The notes beneath the pieces were generated by a model that was not told the DNA's origin, ran no database searches, and saw only the letters and a list, made by a program, of their open reading frames with translations. From Saccoglossus kowalevskii (lineage: Eukaryota > Hemichordata > Enteropneusta > Harrimaniidae): DNA of 39,268 bases. The position numbers and the translations under genes are program-made. Numbering within the stretch: the first letter of the stretch is position 1; the number at the start of each line of letters is the position of its first letter. Below, one piece after another: positions 3,584 through 38,094 of the stretch. The DNA is taken from contig NW_003155743.1 of NCBI RefSeq assembly GCF_000003605.2, positions 237,618 to 276,885 of the forward strand, written 5' to 3'.

Positions 3584-4950
3584 GAACATAATCTACACTG
3601 TAAACAGGACACTTTTGTTAACTGGGAAAACATCAACATAATCTACATTGTAAACAGGACACTTTTGTTAACTGGAAAAAAATCAACATAATCTGTATTG
3701 TAAACAGGACACGTTTGTTAACTGGGAAAACATCAACATAATCTGTATTGTAAACAGGACACTTTTGTTAACTGGGAAAACATCAACTTAATCTACATTG
3801 TAAACAGGACACTTGTGAACTAAAAAAACATCAACATAATCAGCATTATAAACAGGACACTTTTGTTAACTGGAAAAAAATCAACATAATCTGTATTGTA
3901 AACAGGACACTTTTGTTAACTGGGAAAACATAAACATAATCAGCATTGTAAATAGGACACTTTTGTTAACTGGAAAAACATCAACATAATCAGCGTTGTA
4001 AACAGGACACTATTGTTAACTGGGGAAACATCAACATAATTTACATTGTAAACAGAACACTTGTGAACTGGGAAAACATCAATATAATCTTCATTGTAAA
4101 CAGGACACTTTTGTTAACTGGGGAAACATCAACATAATCTACATTGTAAACAGAACACTTTTGTTAACTGGGAAAACATCAACATAATCTACATTGTAAA
4201 CAGAACACCTTTGTTAACTGAGAAAACATCAACATAATCTACATTGTAAACAGAACACTTTTGTTAACTGGGAAAACAACATAATCTACATTGTAAACAG
4301 AACACCTTTGTTAACTGAGAAAACATCAACATAATCTACATTGTAAACAGAACACCTTTGTTAACTGAGAAAACATCAACATAATCTACATTGTAAACAG
4401 AACACCTTTGTCAACTGAGAAAACATCAACATAATCTACATTGTAAACAAGACACTTTTGTTAACTGAGAAAACATCAACATAATCTACATTGTAAACAA
4501 GACACTTTTGTTAACTGAGAAAACATCAACATAATCTACATTGTAAACAAGACACTTTTGTTAACTGAGAAAACATCAACATAATCTACATTGTAAACAA
4601 GACACCTTTGTTAACTGAGAAAACATCAACATAATCTACATTGTAAACAGAACACCTTTGTTAACTGAGAAAACATCAACATAATCTACATTGTAAACAG
4701 AACACTCTTGTTAACTGAGAAAACATCAACATAATCTACATTGTAAACAAGACACTTTTGTTAACTAGGAAAACATCAACATAATCTGTATTGTAAACAT
4801 GACACTTTTGTTAACTGGGAAAACATAAACATAATCTACATTGTAAACAGGACACTTTTGTTAACTGGGAAAACACCAACATAATCTACATTGTAAACAG
4901 GGCACTTTTGTTAACTGGGAAAACATCAACATGATTTACATTGTAAACAA
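3584..4950 (+). repeat. 50-bp satellite array, ~27 copies
   Basis: A 49-50-bp unit containing AACATAATCTACATTG, TAAACAGRACACYTTTGTTA and ACTGRGAAAACATC. I count ~27 full units plus a partial one. Units between ~4140 and 4750 are nearly identical, while those at the edges are more diverged, as expected from recent homogenisation in the centre. Each unit contains the forkhead-type core GTAAACA and the palindrome GTTAAC. Confidence 0.95.
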
Positions 4951-5704: not shown

Positions 5705-6171
5705 CACAGTGACTGCATCATTGAGCAATGATTCCCCGAATACAAGTATATACAAAGATTCATTTACGTGCACTTCTTCAAACACGGCCAGCACGGCAAC
5801 GGGATCAACCGCAGATATCAAACTGCTGAATACCAAGCAATCCAGAAAGTCTAACGGTACAGACACCCATCCAAGACAAACGATGCCATAGAGGGATGCA
5901 CCGATGGCAAAGCAATTAAAAAGAGTCCCTAAAACTGCATAGAGTAAAATTGTTCCAATGTTGTCGAAGAAAGCACGATTGGGCATAAAGTAACCGGCTT
6001 CTAGAACAATGGGCGGAAGTAAGAACAAGAAGAAAGTGTCGCTGTCAAGAGTGTAATCGTCGATAACATCGTTGGCTGCAAAGTAGATAATTACTCCAAC
6101 AATTATACCAAGAATAATCAGCAAGCAGCTCTCTGGAAAGATCTTTGCTAGTCGATTTGACAGATGAAACG
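5705..6171 (-). CDS. SLC9A3-like: Na+/H+ exchanger gene B, exon 2 (ion-transport core)
   Basis: This exon encodes 155 complete codons plus the split codon from exon 1 (protein residues ~105-260). The acceptor is TATATTCACAG at 6172; the donor is GTG|GTAAGT at 5704 (phase 0). In order: residues 106-118 [13 protein letters not shown], a helix with [13 protein letters not shown], the amiloride/transport-helix signature [20 protein letters not shown] (~151-170), [11 protein letters not shown], then [18 protein letters not shown] and [12 protein letters not shown]. The GES...ND segment contains the conserved acidic residues of the cation/proton site (E251 and N255-D256 here, equivalent to E262 and N266-D267 of NHE1). 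All look intact, so a working transporter is expected. The exon is nearly collinear with human NHE3. Downstream exons lie beyond position 1. No stop codon or frameshift is seen, and identification as an SLC9A family member is secure. Confidence 0.97.
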
Positions 6172-7227
6172 CTGTGAATATACAAATAAGAAAAGAAATT
6201 AAAATAACATAGCATACATGTATCTATCACTACCTTGCCCATTGGATACAAAGTAACAATGCAGTTGCTGCCTGATACAATCTATTCTTTGAAGAGAAAA
6301 AGTTATATTAAAATATTTCAATCAATACAGTAATATATCAGAATTTTTGTAAGGTAATATTGAAAGAGTTTTAACAGCTTTCAATAATGATAATTAAAAA
6401 GTATCTTATCCACTCATACAGTGTACTGTGTTTTCTTATTAGTACTCACTCAGCGTAGTCTTTTTTTTGGGCCATGAAACAACGTTTAGACTGAAATTTC
6501 ACTGTTCTATATAATACAGCAACAAACGATGCACAATATATGTCACCCTACATTTCGAACAGTCAAAATTCTACCATGAATTTTTAAATTAATTATTTAT
6601 ATTAGCACATTGGTCAAAATTGTTTTTACCGTACATGTACTGTTAATCTCAACATCTGTTATAGAATAATGTAATACAAATTGTCTATTATTCTCTAAAT
6701 ATTTACAGCAATAGATCCAAACAAAACACAACCTTTTGAAGAGAAATTTATTTGTAAATTTTGTTGGTGAAAAAAATTTTAGAAAAAAATAGATGAAATC
6801 AGTTTTTAATAACGACAAAAAAAAAATTAACACTGACATTAACAACAACAAGAAGGGCATTTCCCCCTTCATATATCTTATTCTTCTTCTATATTCAGGC
6901 AAGATAATAATTAATTTATTAATGTACCTGTTCATGTGATACAGCCCAGCAGATATTTTCAATAACCTCCCCCCTCCCAGCATGCAATGCATACATCAAC
7001 CAATAAGATCATCTAAACATGTTTGATTGATGTATTTTAATATTGTGACATCATCTTCAAACATTTTATGGCATTTGACAATTGTTATTTTTATTTAAAA
7101 ACTACTGTTTGAAATATTAATCTTTCCGCTATGTACAAGTACTGGTAGTTTTAAACATTTAACAAGACATGTTTCTGTGTTATAATCATAATGCGATATT
7201 TACTGTTTCAAATTCTCTCAACCCTAA

Positions 7228-15336: not shown

Positions 15337-16200
15337 GGCTTAAGCAGGCTAAAGCAGACCAGCGTTTCCATGGATGAAAGTAGACATGTTTTCTTGGAGG
15401 GGGGCTTAATTGTTATGTTGAAGCAGACCTGGTGTTTCTATGGATGAAAGTAGACATGTTTCCTTGAAGGGGGGCTTAATTGTTATGTTGAAGCAGACCT
15501 GGTGTTTCCATGGATGAAAGTAGACATGTTTCCTTGAAGGGGGGCTTAATTGTTATGTTAAAGCAGACCTGGTGTTTCTATGGATGAAAGTAGACATGTT
15601 TTCTTGGAGGGGGCTTAATTGTTATGTTGAAGCAGACCTGATGTTTCTATGGATGAGAGTAGACATGTTTCCTTGGAGGGGGGCTTAATTGTTATGTTGA
15701 AGCAGACCAGCGTTTCCATGGATGAAGGTAGACACGTTTCCTTGGAGGGGGGCTTAATTGTTATCTTGAAGCAGACCTGGTGTTTCTATGGATGAAAGTA
15801 GACACATTTTCTTGCAGGGGGGCTTAATTGTTATGTTGAAGCAGACCAGCGTTTCCATGGATGAAGGTAGACACGTTTTTTTGGAGGGGGGGGCTTAATT
15901 GTTATGTTGAAGCAGACCTGGTGTTTCTATGGATGAAAGTATACACGTTTCCTTGGAGGAAAGCCTAGTTATATGTATGCTGAAACAAGTCAGTGTTTCC
16001 ATGGATGAAAATAGACATGTTACCTTCGAGGGGGGCTTAATTATAATTGTTATATGTGGGTTGAAGCAGAGAGGTGTTTCTATGGATAGACACAAAGCCC
16101 GGAGGCAAGGCAATTTAATTGTCAGGCTGAAGCAGACCAGCCTAATTATAATTGTTACTGGTATATGTAGGCTGTAGCAAAGCATCGCTTCTATAGATCC
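15337..16200 (+). repeat. 70-bp minisatellite, ~12 units
   Basis: The unit runs AAGCAGACCTGGTGTTTCTA, TGGATGAAAGTAGACATGTT, TCCTTGAAGGGGGGCTTAAT, TGTTATGTTG. The first seven or eight units are close to 70 bp and highly similar; those after ~15960 are diverged and of uneven length. Because 70 is not a multiple of 3, open frames here are incidental. Confidence 0.93.
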
Positions 16201-25772: not shown

Positions 25773-26085
25773 CAATCTTTGCATAGCTAGCAAAAAGCAC
25801 CCATAAGGATATCAGGTAAGGTGTCTCAACGTGCCACCAGTTCAACTCTGCAACAGGGTATCTTTCGTATGTTTCGCCATGATGACCGTCGGCGTCACCA
25901 TCCTCGCTGCGACTTCCAAGTTCATTGTCATCAGAGTCCGTAGTTGGTACGACATGGTAGACGACGCCCCCTGATGATGCATTTTGGACAAGTAATACCT
26001 CCCGAGCAGAAGCTACAGCAGTGTGACCCAAAATTAACATCAACACGGAAGCTAAACACTTCATATCCAGTTTCACCAGAGCCAT
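25773..26085 (-). CDS. SLC9A3-like: Na+/H+ exchanger gene B, exon 1 (signal peptide, extracellular N-terminus, first membrane helix)
   Basis: First coding exon of a plasma-membrane Na+/H+ exchanger (electroneutral swap of external Na+ for internal H+). ATG at 26085 is the first in-frame ATG after an in-frame TAA 21 nt upstream; an alternative Met lies at residue 8. Residues 1-27 look like a signal peptide (hydrophobic core LASVLMLIL, likely cleavage after AVASA). An acidic extracellular stretch follows, with TTDSDDNEL, SEDGDADG and a possible N-glycosylation site at N35. Residues ~85-104 (ETPYLISLWVLFASYAKI) match the start of the NHE3 transport domain. The exon ends ATT G before GTAAGT at 25772 (phase 1). 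It joins exon 2 in phase, giving AKIAFHLS, where human NHE3 has AKIGFHLS. Exon 2 follows after 19.6 kb. NHE2/3-type is favoured over NHE1 by the cleavable leader and the FHLS sequence. Orthology to one mammalian paralogue is not proven. Confidence 0.92.
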
Positions 26086-27254
26086 GAGTCTGTTCACAGC
26101 ATCTTACAAAACGAAAACAGCCACCGAATGTAAATATACAACACGCACGACGAAAGAACTTAGTCCATCATGAGTGAAATAACAATCCGATACGTAATCA
26201 TTGACTTAGGGGGCATTTGTTTAGGTTTTTAAAAAACATAACTCCTTAACTTTGTCAACTGGTAAACGATTTGGCGCTAACATTTGTAAAAGCTTCACTG
26301 GAGCTTGTTCCGGAAACTTGTTGAACGCATTTTGCGTTACTAGTATATACTAATAGCAGAATAATATTTTAGACATATATCGACAAATATATGTTGTATA
26401 CTTAAATTTTCCGAAGGAAGTTTTTTAAAGCTTGCCTAAAAAGAGTGGCATGCTTCAACGCTAGATGGCGCAACACAGGTAATTCAGCTTACAATAGTCA
26501 CAAAACTGAGAGCCGGACAAGGAGGCTTGTCGAGGCTGATATCTGTGCGGCGACTAGTACCCATGTCATAATAACGCTGACTCAATGGAGGAAGTACATG
26601 TGATGCAAACAAATTTGTTCCCACCAAATCAGAAAAGGAATGAGTGAGCACTTGTTTGTTCTTATGAAACTGATCGAGACCCACAGTTGAAGGTGAATCT
26701 TTTCATGGACATAATTTGTTGTTTGTTTCGCATTTTCTTTCATGCATTTTTATACCACATTTTGTACAGTTTTAAATGAGTATTAAATCTAATTAGTGGG
26801 GGGCTATTTTGCTAACAAGGATTTCCCAAATTTTACTCACCACAAATTTCTATTTTGATTTATAAAAATGTATATTTATAAAACGTTTATATTGACTGCA
26901 GCATTATGTCTTACTGGAGCATATGTTTTAAATACATTTGTTTATTTATAAGCAAACTGTTAATTAAATTTCGAGTTAAACAAAACAAAAATATATATGT
27001 TGCCTGTAAATCAAAGTTTGGTTATTTAAAGTTTGAGTTACTGAATGTGGACGTTCAGCAAAAACCAAAATGTACATTGCTCGTAACTCGAAGTTCTGTT
27101 AACTGTTAATTGAACATTACACAAAAGTGGGCGTGGTTTCAAAAATATGGGCGTGGTCATTTCTGTAACTCAATGTTTTCGGAACTCAATGTTCGTAACT
27201 CAATCGCATCTCCTCCAAAACAAGACCCACACCCAAGACCAATGGCAGAGGTGG

Positions 27255-32353: not shown

Positions 32354-32556
32354 TTATAAAGAAGATTCAGCATTAAGAGGAGTCTGACCATCAGACGAAC
32401 GAAAATCCACACGTAGTTGGTCTTGCGGATAATCATCTTTATTAGACATTTTGATATCAAGATCTGCTGGTGTTGATGTTCTTTGGGGTACAAGTGGAGA
32501 CATTTCAACTATGTGACTGTCCTTCTTGAACAGTGGGTTGTCTTCACCTTCTGAAT
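32354..32556 (-). CDS. SLC9A3-like: Na+/H+ exchanger gene A, last coding exon f (stop, PDZ-type C-terminus)
   Basis: The terminal coding exon. The acceptor is TATTTGCTAG at 32557 (phase 1) and the stop is TAA at 32356-32354. It encodes 67 residues. DSEGEDNPLFKKD matches the human NHE3 tail box AGIDNPVFSPDE, which supports an NHE3-type tail. MSPLVPQRTSTP is Ser/Thr-Pro rich. The protein ends LNAESSL; the last residues S-S-L fit a class I PDZ ligand (S/T-X-hydrophobic), as does the THM end of NHE3, which in mammals binds NHERF scaffolds at the apical membrane. With all six exons the tail in this window is 490 residues, or 461 without exon c. That is longer than the equivalent part of NHE3, mainly because of the two His-rich blocks. 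The next gene in the same direction starts about 6.3 kb downstream. Confidence 0.84.
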
Positions 32557-33481: not shown

Positions 33482-33598
33482 CCGAATATTCGTCTTCCAT
33501 CAGATCCAACAAAGGTGTTTCATTTAAAAGAGCCCTAGTATTCAAGTCTGGTAGAGTGTTCCTGGATCTGGCATGTTGCTCATACTGCTGTTGATGCT
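33482..33598 (-). CDS. SLC9A3-like: Na+/H+ exchanger gene A, tail exon e
   Basis: A 117-nt exon with phase 1 at both ends. The acceptor is TTTTTGTATAG at 33599, and the donor TCGG|GTGAGA starts its intron at 33481. The peptide is EHQQQYEQHARSRNTLPDLN then TRALLNETPLLDLMEDEYSG. The Gln-rich start followed by a Leu-rich segment (LPDLNTRALLNETPLLDLM) may form a short amphipathic helix; this is a guess. I know no matching motif in mammalian NHE tails. Support comes from the intact frame between good splice sites, the matching phase with exons d and f, and the absence of repeats in this stretch. Confidence 0.78.
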
Positions 33599-34126: not shown

Positions 34127-34792
34127 CAGTAAGCTGAAAATGTGATGGTTTGTCATGATGACGATGATGATGATGGCGATGATGATGATGTCTACCATCT
34201 GGATTACTTGTCTTGTCTTCATCAGCATTGTGTCTGTGTCTGTGATGATGACCAGAACGGTGCTTACGTCCTCCACTCTGATGCCTATGATCGACATCAT
34301 CTTTGTCATCATCCTCATCCTCTACATCTGCATCTGCATCACTATGGTGATGGTAGTTATGGAAGGCTGGGATGGCATGATCATCATCCTCAATAATTTC
34401 CCCATGAGGTTGTGCATAGGTTAAGTCATCATGGTGAACCGGATCAAAAGTATGATGTTCAATATTTCCCGGATGTTGACCGTAGCTTCGCCGATCTATT
34501 TTAGGACTCGGAATAGGTTTTGAAGCTTCACCACTGCCAATTGAAAAAGTAATCCCTGAATCAGATTCATCACCTCCCTCATCGGAAACAGGTTTCCCAG
34601 GTGATGTGGGGTTGTTATCCTCATCTTCAGAACCAACAGGTGTACCAAACTGCCCATAGGATTCTGTCCTAGCTCTGTCTGAAAGTCTGGGCTCACTGTA
34701 CTGCTTCCAAGGAAGTAGACATTCGGCAGCTGTTGGAACAATCGGCTCTTTAGCTGTAGTGGGGCCATCCATTTCTTCATCATAGTCAGCAC
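34127..34792 (-). CDS. SLC9A3-like: Na+/H+ exchanger gene A, tail exon d (YDEEM box, His-rich block 2)
   Basis: A large 666-nt exon, phase 1 in and out. The acceptor is GTTGATGCAG at 34793; the donor is ACTG|GTAAGT at 34126. It encodes about 222 residues. The first part resembles the distal NHE3 tail: GADYDEEMDG against human PPNYDEEMSGG, then LLPWKQYSEPRLSDRART against LPPWLSPGETVVPSQRART. A Ser/Pro/acidic region follows (GSEDEDNNPTSPG, DEGGDESDSGITFSIGSG), then DRRSYGQ, a possible PKA-type site. Exon residues ~107-218 form a mixed histidine/acidic region: HHTFDPVHH, NYHHHSDADADVEDEDDD, SGHHHRHRH and RHHHHRHHHHRHH. I count 30 His in the exon. The block rests on CAT/GAT-type repeats, so its length may vary between alleles, and long antisense reading frames here are by-products of those repeats. 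The region is presumably disordered and cytoplasmic, and metal or proton binding is plausible but unproven. Confidence 0.88.
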
Positions 34793-34810
34793 CTGCATCA
34801 ACAAAAATAA

Positions 34811-34870
<60 letters not shown>

Positions 34871-35720
34871 GATAACAAAGATACTTCTAACTTCACTATT
34901 TTTGTGAAGTTGCATTTTATTTCAAGCCATTATTTTCATGCAATTTAAAAACATGCTTTAGAATATAAATATCAAAAACTTTGTGATGTATAAATGAGGT
35001 TCACACATTGCCATACAACTTTCAACACACATTTTTCAAGACATGTTTGTGATATACAATGTAAATAAGAATACATGAAAATCAAACCAACATGAATGCC
35101 AGTGAACATTTTGATTTGCCAGTCGGCCAAATGAGTACATCAGTAACCTACTATGAGTAATATTAATATCAAGTTCAATGAAACCGACCCAGGCACACCT
35201 GAAGAACAGTTGAAGACACGTTGAAATGTTTTGAGATGAAAATGACGCAAATCAGACGAAGGTCAACGAAATGAAAAACAAATCAATGTGCATAAATATA
35301 CCATTATGTACAGTCATTGTACCTCCTTTGAACAAAATTAGCCCATGCATGGATAGACGCAGACACTAAATGATGTGATATAAAAATTTAGGCTGATTAA
35401 TTTAAATTACAATAAAAGATTATTAGATTACCGGTATACGTTTTTATATATATTTTACGTTACAGTTCTGAAACTTGAAATGAGTGATGATGTATTAAAG
35501 CATTCTTTATCACAGAAATCATGCATTGTCCTAAATATACAGTTGCTTCATCAGCAATTTGTTTCTAAAAAAAAAAACGCAATGTGCTGGCAGCGTACAT
35601 GTAGATTTCACACACCAACTGTGAGCATTAGTAATGAAAAAATGTAATAATGGCGACATCCAAGGAAAGCATCATGAGACTGTGGAGATGAAAGCAAGCT
35701 CAGATGCCTTGAACACATAC
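34793..35720 (-). other. Gene A intron between exons c and d
   Basis: A 928-bp phase 1 intron. It contains the ATT microsatellite next to the exon d acceptor. I see nothing else. Confidence 0.65.
34812..34870. repeat. (ATT)n microsatellite next to exon d acceptor
   Basis: About 20 copies of the triplet, lying ~20 nt upstream (transcription sense) of the exon d acceptor at 34793. Confidence 0.96.
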
Positions 35721-35807
35721 CTAGAGGTAAATCAACTCCAGCTATTATTGATACATTTGCAGAGTCAGTAGTGTTGATGTGATTACGCACTGTCACATGC
35801 AGTGCAT
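35721..35807 (-). CDS. SLC9A3-like: Na+/H+ exchanger gene A, probable tail exon c (possible cassette)
   Basis: An 87-nt stretch with acceptor TTATTACAG at 35808 and donor CTAG|GTATGTG at 35720. Only the phase 1 to phase 1 reading is open, and this is the phase required by exons b and d. It encodes DALHVTVRNHINTTDSANVS then IIAGVDLPLG, which I do not recognise. It has no His cluster and matches no NHE tail motif I know. It may be a constitutive exon, an alternatively used cassette, or a chance match to splice rules. Exon b joins exon d equally well in frame without it. Confidence 0.52.
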
Positions 35808-35848
35808 CTGTAATAAGTACGTTAATCAGTACAGATGAAAATTAAATG

Positions 35849-36003
35849 TACCGTATTTGCTCTATTAGAAGCACATCTTCAATGGAAGTGCATATAAACC
35901 AGCATATGCTTGTTTTGTATTCGAGATAATTAAAATATTACTTATTTTTCCCTCGACTAACACACCTGTACTTAAGAGCATGTACTTCTAATAGAGAAAG
36001 GTA
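35849..36003. mobile_element. TA-flanked MITE, GTATTTGCTCTATTAGAAG family (copy 2)
   Basis: The left end is TACCGTATTTGCTCTATTAG then AAGCACAT. The right end read inwards is TACCTTTCTCTATTAGAAGT then ACATG. 155 bp, with TA at both edges. It lies in the gene A intron close to exon c. Confidence 0.75.
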
Positions 36004-36217
36004 TGTGCATAATTTGATATTATAAGATATTTTACTCTGCTGTGCATACCAATTACTAGTGATATTGATACAATTTAATTCGCATGCATTTTTGGTTGAA
36101 ATCTTAAATGCATATGAATGTTATAACAATACCATGCAATTATCGCAAAATATGCAGTACATGCAGTACAGCAATCATATCGCCCAAAGTTTCCCTACTG
36201 CGAAAGTGCATACTATG

Positions 36218-36347
36218 AGGTTATTATGAGGATATCTCAAAGTATGCAGGAAAACAGTACAGCGGGAGTATTGACTGACGCGCAACGGAGGCCGATGCGA
36301 TGACATACTGTCTGAGTGCATACTTTGAGGAATCCTCGTAATAACCT
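36218..36347. mobile_element. Foldback MITE-like element, 130 bp
   Basis: The left arm is AGGTTATTATGAGGATATCT then CAAAGTATGCA. The right arm read inwards is AGGTTATTACGAGGATTCCT then CAAAGTATGCA. Weaker complementarity (ACAGTAC, ACAGTAT) continues into the centre. Confidence 0.75.
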
Positions 36348-37171
36348 TATTATACATTTTTTCCTTCCAAGGATACACACTGGGAATGCCGAAATTCAAA
36401 ATGTTTAGAACAGAATCAGCGAACTTCTTTGTTCTGAGCCCGGCCAAACCCTGGTGGCAGCCATGTCAGTTTTTATTATTAGAGGACGCTTATGTGAGTA
36501 ATCATTCCATATTTTAATTCGCATTTCCTTATATGGTAGGATGAAAATACCCTGTAAAATACTGCAAAATTACAGCATGCTGTACGGCGACAGATGTATA
36601 ATAATCTGTGTTATTCTTGTGATAACCTTGTGATTATTAATAATAATAATATTTACATGTACAACCTTTTATGATATGGTAAATTCTAGATGTACAATAA
36701 TGAATTATATCAAAGCAACAATATCACTAACAGTTTTGCTGAATCCTTGAAGGCGAGTGTCTTTAACAAGTACTCTCCTCAGCATATTAATATCTAATTT
36801 GCATATTGCTTGGGCAATACTGAGTATATGCCTGCAACAGAAAGGGGGAGGGGGCAAAGTTTGCCTCAGTTTTTCATAAGTTGAATATATATATATTATT
36901 TCACTAACATTAGCATGTTTGTCAATGCGAATAAACATTGATATACATGTATTTCCTTCTTGCAGTACATGGTAAGATAAAGAACCCAAAACTCAGCAAT
37001 TGTAATAATAGAAGTCATATCTATTTTTTTGAAAATTCCAAGCACGGCATTTCTGTAAAACCACCATGCTTTGAAGGCCTGGGAAGAACACTAAGCAACC
37101 AAATGTATTTGACGTTCATTTCACTGAACACGAGAACTAGTAAAATTAAGAATAAAAACAAAAGTTTTTAC

Positions 37172-37261
37172 CTGGAGTAGCTGAAAATATTATACCACCT
37201 TCTTCATCAGAACTATTCTCTTCTTTCAGTGTTGGCTCGATGTGAAAAGATGGTGGATCAT
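37172..37261 (-). CDS. SLC9A3-like: Na+/H+ exchanger gene A, tail exon b (acidic GGI box)
   Basis: A 90-nt exon, phase 1 in and phase 1 out. The acceptor is TTTATATAG at 37262, after a long T tract; the donor is CCAG|GTAAAA at 37171, weaker than the consensus. The peptide begins with the split Asp codon and reads DDPPSFHIEPTLKEE, then NSSDEEGGIIFSATP. The acidic-GGI-F pattern recalls DDDGGIMMRS of NHE1 and SGGIEFLASV of NHE3. The reading frame agrees exactly with the exons on both sides. Because both ends are phase 1, the exon could be skipped without a frameshift. It is too short to be identified on its own. Support comes from phase, splice sites and the matching motif. Confidence 0.74.
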
Positions 37262-37784
37262 CTATATAAAAAAAAAAAAAAAGCATACTTTTTAAGGCAA
37301 TCATTTTTTAAGGTAACAAGACATGCCACAGTTCTGTCGTTTTCATTAAAAAAATATATATTTATTAAAGTGCATGTATACATATCTGTATTGATACGTG
37401 CATCGAATATCTCAAATATCTCTATTTTAATCTATTACGCAAAAAATTTGAACATCCATCAATGAATACCTAAAATAAGGTTCCACAAAGGCCTGATATT
37501 GTTTATTCTGATTGACACTTGATACATCCATACATGGACATATACATACATGTTGGTATTATATTGGCCTTTTTTTACCCGCTTTGCCCAAGGGGGCCAA
37601 AAAGCTAGTGACATGCCAGGAACCTTCATAAAATCCTATATCCCATGGTTAATAATAGCACAATATAACAATTATTAACAATGACGACGACGATGACAAC
37701 GACAACAATGACGACAACAGACATTTCCCTTAATAAACCTTTCCCTTCCATCTTTGACGATACGAACAAGGTAATAAAACTTAC
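37262..37784 (-). other. Gene A intron between exons a and b
   Basis: A 523-bp phase 1 intron with simple-sequence CAT/GAC-type codon runs near 37680-37715 and a T tract (minus strand) just before exon b. No further exon seen. Confidence 0.7.
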
Positions 37785-38094
37785 CTGGGAATGGAATGTC
37801 CATACTGAAACTAACATTTTTATGTGGTCCTTTGTGGTGATGATCTTTGTGTTCTTTACGATGATGATGATGACCGTTGTGATGTCCAACGTGGCTATGA
37901 TGAGAACTATTACGTGATGGTCTATCATCTTCTGAATTCAAACTGTGATGAGAGGGTCTGTTAGCCATCCTAGCTTTCTTTTTCCTCTGTTTCATCACAT
38001 GCCTCAAATGTAAATGAACACTTCTTCGCAGTAGATGGTCGTTCTTTTCAAGTTCAGCATCATGCATATTATGCCTATTCCTTTTGTAGCAGCT
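37785..38094 (-). CDS. SLC9A3-like: Na+/H+ exchanger gene A, C-terminal tail exon a (His-rich block 1)
   Basis: Part of the cytoplasmic tail of a second exchanger whose transport domain lies beyond 39268. The acceptor is CCACAACAG at 38095; phase 0 in, phase 1 out, with donor CCCAG|GTAAGT at 37784. It encodes 103 residues plus a split codon. Residues 1-34 (SCYKRNRHNM..., AELEKNDHLLRRSVH) resemble the NHE3 tail segment [20 protein letters not shown] and the NHE1 SYNRH...LLRR segment, which is the main reason for the family call. A basic stretch KQRKKKAR follows (36-42). Residues 49-91 then form a histidine block with SHH, HHSHVGHHNGHHHH and KDHHHK. By my count 22 of 103 residues are His. RRS at 23-25 is a possible basophilic kinase site. 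No mammalian NHE tail I know has such a block at this point. The family call is an inference from short motifs and exon context, so it is less certain than for gene B. Confidence 0.78.

Follow-up and report, generated by a model that had tools for sequence, protein, structure and literature searches.

Two histidine-rich blocks in the distal tail of a putative NHE3-type sodium-proton exchanger from the hemichordate Saccoglossus kowalevskii

A stretch of 39,268 nucleotides of the Saccoglossus kowalevskii genome (the window, positions 237618-276885 of scaffold C4510, in a genome of 572 Mb and 4830 contigs) carries on its minus strand the tail exons of a gene, hereafter gene A, whose identity as an NHE3-type (SLC9A) plasma-membrane sodium-proton exchanger is supported by the membrane exons located upstream of it and by a tandem paralogue, gene B. 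The distal tail predicted for gene A contains 58 histidines (His), most of them gathered in two blocks that we tentatively read as a pH-responsive charge switch tuning the activity of the exchanger. Coordinates of tail exons are given as positions of the window, and those prefixed with C4510 as positions of the scaffold.

Six exons, a to f (38094 to 32354), flanked by AG/GT borders, join into a single open frame of 490 residues that ends in ESSL followed by a stop codon. His accounts for 58 of these residues (11.8%), with 22 in exon a, 1 in b, 2 in c, 30 in d, 2 in e and 1 in f, an enrichment whose probability is about 4e-22 if a background of 2.5% His is assumed. The figures for exons a and d are exactly those given in an earlier note on this DNA, made from the letters alone, and the strings HHSHVGHHNGHHHH and RHHHHRHHHHRHH are both found in the tail translation. 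That note also had the His interleaved with long acidic runs in both exons, which holds for exon d, to which such runs are confined, but not for exon a, which is basic (21 Lys or Arg versus 10 Asp or Glu). A six-frame scan of 129 kb of scaffold C4510 around the locus (84,092 non-N bases, stop-free stretches of at least 60 codons, n=230) placed exon d first, with 19 His in its best 60-codon window, followed by exon a (17), the antisense strand of exon d (15) and exon d of gene B (13); the next of the 230 stretches reached 10. All five junctions of the tail are in phase 1, so that in-frame skipping is possible for each of exons b, c, d and e (90, 87, 666 and 117 bases). A perfect (ATT)19 microsatellite is present at window positions 34812-34869, some 20 bases upstream of the exon d acceptor, and changes in its length could affect the splicing of this exon.

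Three exons matching the exchanger domain PF00999 (C4510:289557-285340) lie on the same strand as the tail, at least 9.6 kb upstream of exon a. Joined by alignment as exons 3-5, with provisional borders, they served as the query in profile, structure and genome searches. Among solved structures the best match was NHE3 (7x2u, E 6e-74), followed by NHE1 (E 3e-71), and the plasma-membrane NHE model TIGR00840 was matched at positions 179-404 with 290.3 bits, above its cut-off of 251.25. An approximate human NHE3 sequence served for identities, shuffle tests and tblastn; identities of the three exons to it were 54.7, 63.5 and 46.6%. A first exon near C4510:315109-314987, also delimited as 314987-315322, encodes a hydrophobic N-terminus with the same layout as exon 1 of gene B. 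The exon for the first half of the membrane domain was not found, and a run of N (C4510:301422-310177) covers the place expected for it. Neither did tblastn with the human NHE3 sequence find, in the scaffold sequence covered, the CHP-binding, juxtamembrane part of the tail that carries the set-point His, which is presumably inside a run of N. When the genome was searched with the membrane exons, six candidates were scored and the four matches listed were the three exons themselves and a weak one (E 0.027). Apart from the latter and exon d of gene B, no further genome copy of exons a, d or the membrane exons appeared among the best candidates scored.

The similarity of the distal tail itself to human NHE3 is marginal. 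YDEEM, DNPxF and a PDZ-type end are present in gene A, and in tests with 1000 shuffles the scores of three aligned blocks were equalled or exceeded 8, 43 and 72 times. The identification of these exons as an NHE tail, which the earlier note had drawn from such motifs, is better founded on the same-strand NHE exons upstream and on the tandem NHE paralogue with a homologous tail exon, the motifs themselves being weak and YDEEM missing from gene B. It would be very improbable that the tail exons belong to another, non-NHE gene lying partly in the run of N (C4510:276886-282956, 6071 bases) that covers the junction between the membrane exons of gene A and exon a. Pfam yielded nothing in exons a and d, and PDB matches of the tail were weak (E of 0.097 or more), which together with the run of N and the marginal resemblance to human NHE3 would suit such a gene; against it, the two tandem copies share strand and order (membrane exon, core-bearing exon d, last exon with an ESSL or ESSV end), and the two copies of exon d are reciprocal best matches and the sole two listed. 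In gene B the junction between membrane and tail exons is likewise covered by a run of N, of 30 kb. The 23 PDB matches of the tail at E of 10 or less (best 0.097) were set aside, the five alignments shown beginning in a His stretch resembling a purification tag. A scan of viral_contigs with the exon d core gave nine pattern matches and zero confirmed ones.

Gene B, which lies downstream of gene A, repeats its exon order: exon 1, then a membrane exon, then exon d of the tail, then the last exon with an ESS(L/V) end. The ESSL and ESSV ends we take to be type I PDZ-like motifs. The possibility that A and B are a single gene was rejected because both have an exon 1 and a stop exon of their own. 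Exon 2 of gene B scores 132.1 bits with PF00999 (cut-off 26.2) and, as a single exon, 221 bits with TIGR00840 (E 2.3e-65), under the cut-off of 251.25. The remaining membrane exons of this gene were not found, their place being occupied by the 30 kb run of N, downstream of which (C4510 206.7-203.1 kb) lie a 36-base exon, exon d and a last exon ending in ESSV and a stop codon. The 36-base and last exons are paired with those of gene A by place and phase only, and the score of exons e-f of A against the last exon of B was reached by 426 of 1000 shuffles. Exon d of gene B (C4510:204990-205562) was the sole other match listed in a protein search with that of gene A, reciprocally, at 56% identity over 36 residues, and the two align with a score of 128, the maximum of 500 shuffles being 72. 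Since the core alone scores 114, it is the core that carries the homology, overall identity being 32%. The core of gene B aligned to the human NHE3 sequence with a score that 696 of 1000 shuffles reached. In its 3' part, exon d of gene B is also rich in His (15 in 191 residues, of which a single 60-codon window holds 13).

The reading we favour is that the His blocks work as a charge switch that responds to pH and adjusts the activity of the exchanger, a possibility that we hold somewhat short of even and in which the joining of membrane and tail exons across the run of N, the response to pH and its consequences for transport are all inferred. According to this proposal, a distal tail that seems disordered, to judge from its composition only, would have gained two His-rich blocks; upon acidification of the cytosol many of their His would become protonated, so that block 1 would turn strongly cationic and block 2 would go from acidic towards neutral or cationic. 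Such a swing of charge could alter the binding of the tail to membrane lipids, to its own acidic runs or to partners, and this in turn could shift the activity of the exchanger, its set point or its retention at the surface. The estimates of charge depend on the pKa assumed for His, 6.5 or 6.0. With 6.5, block 1 would change from +3.5 at pH 7.5 to +14 at pH 6.0, and block 2 from about -11 at pH 7.5 to +1 at pH 6.5 and +9 at pH 6.0. Mutation of the juxtamembrane H480 and H500 of NHE3 is reported to make the threshold for activity more acid (PMC5701670; source also cited in PMC5408280), and a pH-sensitive low-complexity sequence has been reported in yeast SWI/SNF (PMC8890752).

Several points weigh against a charge switch. 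With a pKa of 6.0, block 2 would be barely positive (+1.3) at pH 6.0, and both blocks are distal to the region in which the known pH-setting His of NHE proteins are located. In the His cluster of NHE1, substitutions by Lys and by Gln were described as affecting lipid binding equally, and association with the membrane as not being a simple on-off pH switch (PMC7713384); the former result speaks against plain charge and slightly lowered our confidence. The His-rich N-terminus of CatSper1 calls for caution too, since pH sensing was first credited to it and later work pointed to EFCAB9 (PMC11201807). Other points come from the DNA. Positions 34155-34190 form an ATG-type array, with a period of either 3 (12 copies) or 15 bases (2.4 copies, 95% matches), that encodes the 13-residue RHHHHRHHHHRHH. 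The His positions, taken one by one, are hardly common to the exons d of A and B, whose likeness in His is one of enrichment only.

These features of the DNA would fit a different, somewhat unlikely reading, in which the blocks arose from repeats as nearly neutral low-complexity sequence of little specific function, allowed to persist in a disordered linker that separates the conserved core from the PDZ-type end; runs of His (CAT) and of Asp (GAT) are moreover one triplet class read on two strands. Among the eight places of the scanned scaffold with dense CAT/CAC (at least 6 of 13 triplets, in any frame), three are tail exons and one is the antisense of exon d, while four lie elsewhere, one of which, adjoining a TGG array, matches the density of exon d. 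Set against this is that the His-rich place recurs in gene B in spite of the divergence of exon d, and that no tandem array was found at a score threshold of 30 in exon d of gene B or in exon a. Codon usage does not set the His apart either, as CAT and CAC stand at 43:15 in gene A, compared with 83:35 for T and C in other two-fold pyrimidine codons (Fisher p 0.72), and at 15:2 compared with 39:13 in gene B (p 0.33). Finally, CAT/CAC triplets fall mainly in the coding frame (22 versus 4 and 1 in the other two frames of exon a, 30 versus 6 and 3 in exon d, 15 versus 7 and 5 in gene B), with the caveat that frame is also influenced by the need to avoid stops and hydrophobic residues, and other residues break up the His clusters. 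An assembly or allele-specific repeat as the source of the enrichment seems unlikely, because gene B is His-rich at the same place and lacks a tandem array there. The outcome that would have spoken for the His blocks being an artefact, as envisaged in the earlier note, is thus mostly countered by the paralogue, even though the comparison involves one paralogue and RHHHHRHHHHRHH is indeed a tandem repeat. We read the blocks as the result of repeat-fed growth, either kept since the duplication or gained twice.

It can also be the case, though we consider it unlikely, that the blocks bind Zn2+ (or Cu2+ or Ni2+), with the acidic runs as possible co-ligands, so that metal would control the exchanger or anchor it by way of metal-dependent contacts; among functional alternatives to the charge switch this is the main one. 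The tail has clusters, HHSHVGHHNGHHHH and HHHHRHHHHRHHD among them, of a kind that typically provides metal ligands, and the mixed His/acid blocks recall the histidine-rich calcium-binding protein (HRC). Free cytosolic zinc is very low, however, and binding of metal in vitro is common to most His clusters, so that binding alone would be no proof of function; Cys is also scarce in the His exons, with one residue each in exons a and d. A precedent is found in FGFRL1, whose His-rich cytosolic end was reported with 2.6 (human) and 1.7 (sea urchin) moles of Zn per mole, and which left the insoluble fraction for the Triton-soluble one when its His-rich region was missing, but in the same report the sea urchin fragment hardly bound to Ni or Zn columns (PMC2806250).

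A broader proposal would combine the charge switch with metal binding: a tandem pair of NHE3-type genes with a titratable, metal-binding battery of His in the distal tail, carried partly on an in-frame skippable exon, in which splicing would tune the control of activity by protons and zinc, and A (stronger) and B (weaker) would represent the same device at two settings. We regard this as distinctly unlikely. That the tail buffers protons locally, as the earlier note had suggested, or collects them as an antenna for the exchanger, is highly improbable and physically weak: in a random coil of assumed dimensions, its 58 titratable His would reach a mean local concentration of about 24 mM, but an NHE exports hundreds to thousands of protons per second, the tail would hold tens at most and be saturated in less than a second, and the blocks are far in sequence from the membrane domain, so that buffering as the main role was rejected on stoichiometry.

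The features of the window are collected in Table 1. Around gene B, a minisatellite with a 50-base unit (27.4 copies, 91% matches) occupies positions 3585-4949, downstream of exon 2, and the 19.6 kb between exons 1 and 2 contain a tandem array with periods of 70 and 139 bases (about 10 and 5 copies) at 15352-16042. Dispersed repeat text of the GTCGAGC...TATCATATGAGTG type was read by eye at 1-60, about 780-850 and, in L015, about 6430-6500, always on the minus strand. Exons of another NHE-family gene are located at C172:217382-218734, and the piece tested has as its closest match the sodium proton exchanger specific to sperm (SLC9C1 type, E 5.3e-23).

Table 1. Tail exons and His blocks of gene A and exons 1 and 2 of gene B in the window
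Feature	Position	Strand	Description
Exon a, 310 bp	37785..38094	-	22 His in 103 residues, basic; open frame, acceptor ccacaacag/AGC, donor CCCAG/gtaagt
His block 1	37819..37956	-	tail residues 47-92, 16 His in 46; no tandem repeat at score 30
Exon b, 90 bp, phase 1-1	37172..37261	-	AG/GT borders, frame maintained
Exon c, 87 bp, phase 1-1	35721..35807	-	AG/GT borders, frame maintained
Exon d, 666 bp, phase 1-1	34127..34792	-	30 His in 222 residues; core EPIVPTAAECLLPWKQYSEPRLSDRARTESYGQFGT common to gene B
His/acid block 2	34128..34481	-	tail residues 267-384: 30 His, 26 Asp/Glu and 12 Lys/Arg in 118
RHHHHRHHHHRHH, 15-base tandem repeat, 2.4 copies	34155..34193	-	array 34155-34190; likeliest part to vary in length
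Exon e, 117 bp, phase 1-1	33482..33598	-	joined frame
Last coding exon f	32354..32556	-	DNPLF; ends ESSL-stop
Gene B exon 1	25773..26103	-	hydrophobic N-terminus, then NWWHVETPYLISLWVLFASYAKI; 44.9% identity to human NHE3, E 3.5e-06; upper limit set by the open frame
Gene B exon 2, first half of NHE transmembrane domain	5705..6171	-	PF00999 E 3e-38; NHE3 7x2u E 4.8e-52; splice sites read

The role of the NHE tail in setting the internal pH at which these exchangers turn on is unsettled, the candidates being single His and a cluster of four. Gene A, with 58 tail His of which about half are on an exon removable in frame, and its neighbour with fewer of them would offer a strong natural test and a comparison of dose. 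Gene A resembles NHE3 (SLC9A3) and the plasma-membrane group TIGR00840 in its membrane exons, in the hydrophobic N-terminus before the AKI/FHLS junction, in its long tail and in the PDZ-type end; it differs in the His of its distal tail, lying mostly in two exons, since human NHE3 is not known to have such blocks and the distal tails can hardly be aligned. HRC, in which His-rich stretches alternate with acidic runs, and the ZIP/ZnT transporters with their His-rich loops are alike in having such stretches, HRC being a protein of the lumen of the sarcoplasmic reticulum. A search of the open-access literature by topic, most subscription papers being outside it, turned up no NHE with a His-rich distal tail, in agreement with the earlier note, which knew of none; for the NHE3-like protein of Tridacna, of 961 residues, the available part of the source mentions only conserved single His (PMC5408280). 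The cluster HYGHHH of NHE1 (540-545) is the nearest likeness within the family, being a group of His in the cytoplasmic tail linked to pH sensitivity and lipid binding (PMC7713384), but it comprises four His near the membrane domain, while gene A has 16 and 30 in distal blocks. FGFRL1, also a membrane protein with a His-rich, zinc-binding cytosolic end, is unrelated and has 10 (human) or 6 (sea urchin) His there (PMC2806250). CatSper1, which transports ions under the control of pH, has a His-rich stretch as gene A does; it is an unrelated channel, whose response to pH was later ascribed to an EFCAB9-dependent mechanism (PMC11201807). Should the blocks of gene A turn out to do nothing, they would, as in the case of CatSper1, provide a useful caution on reading function from His-rich stretches.

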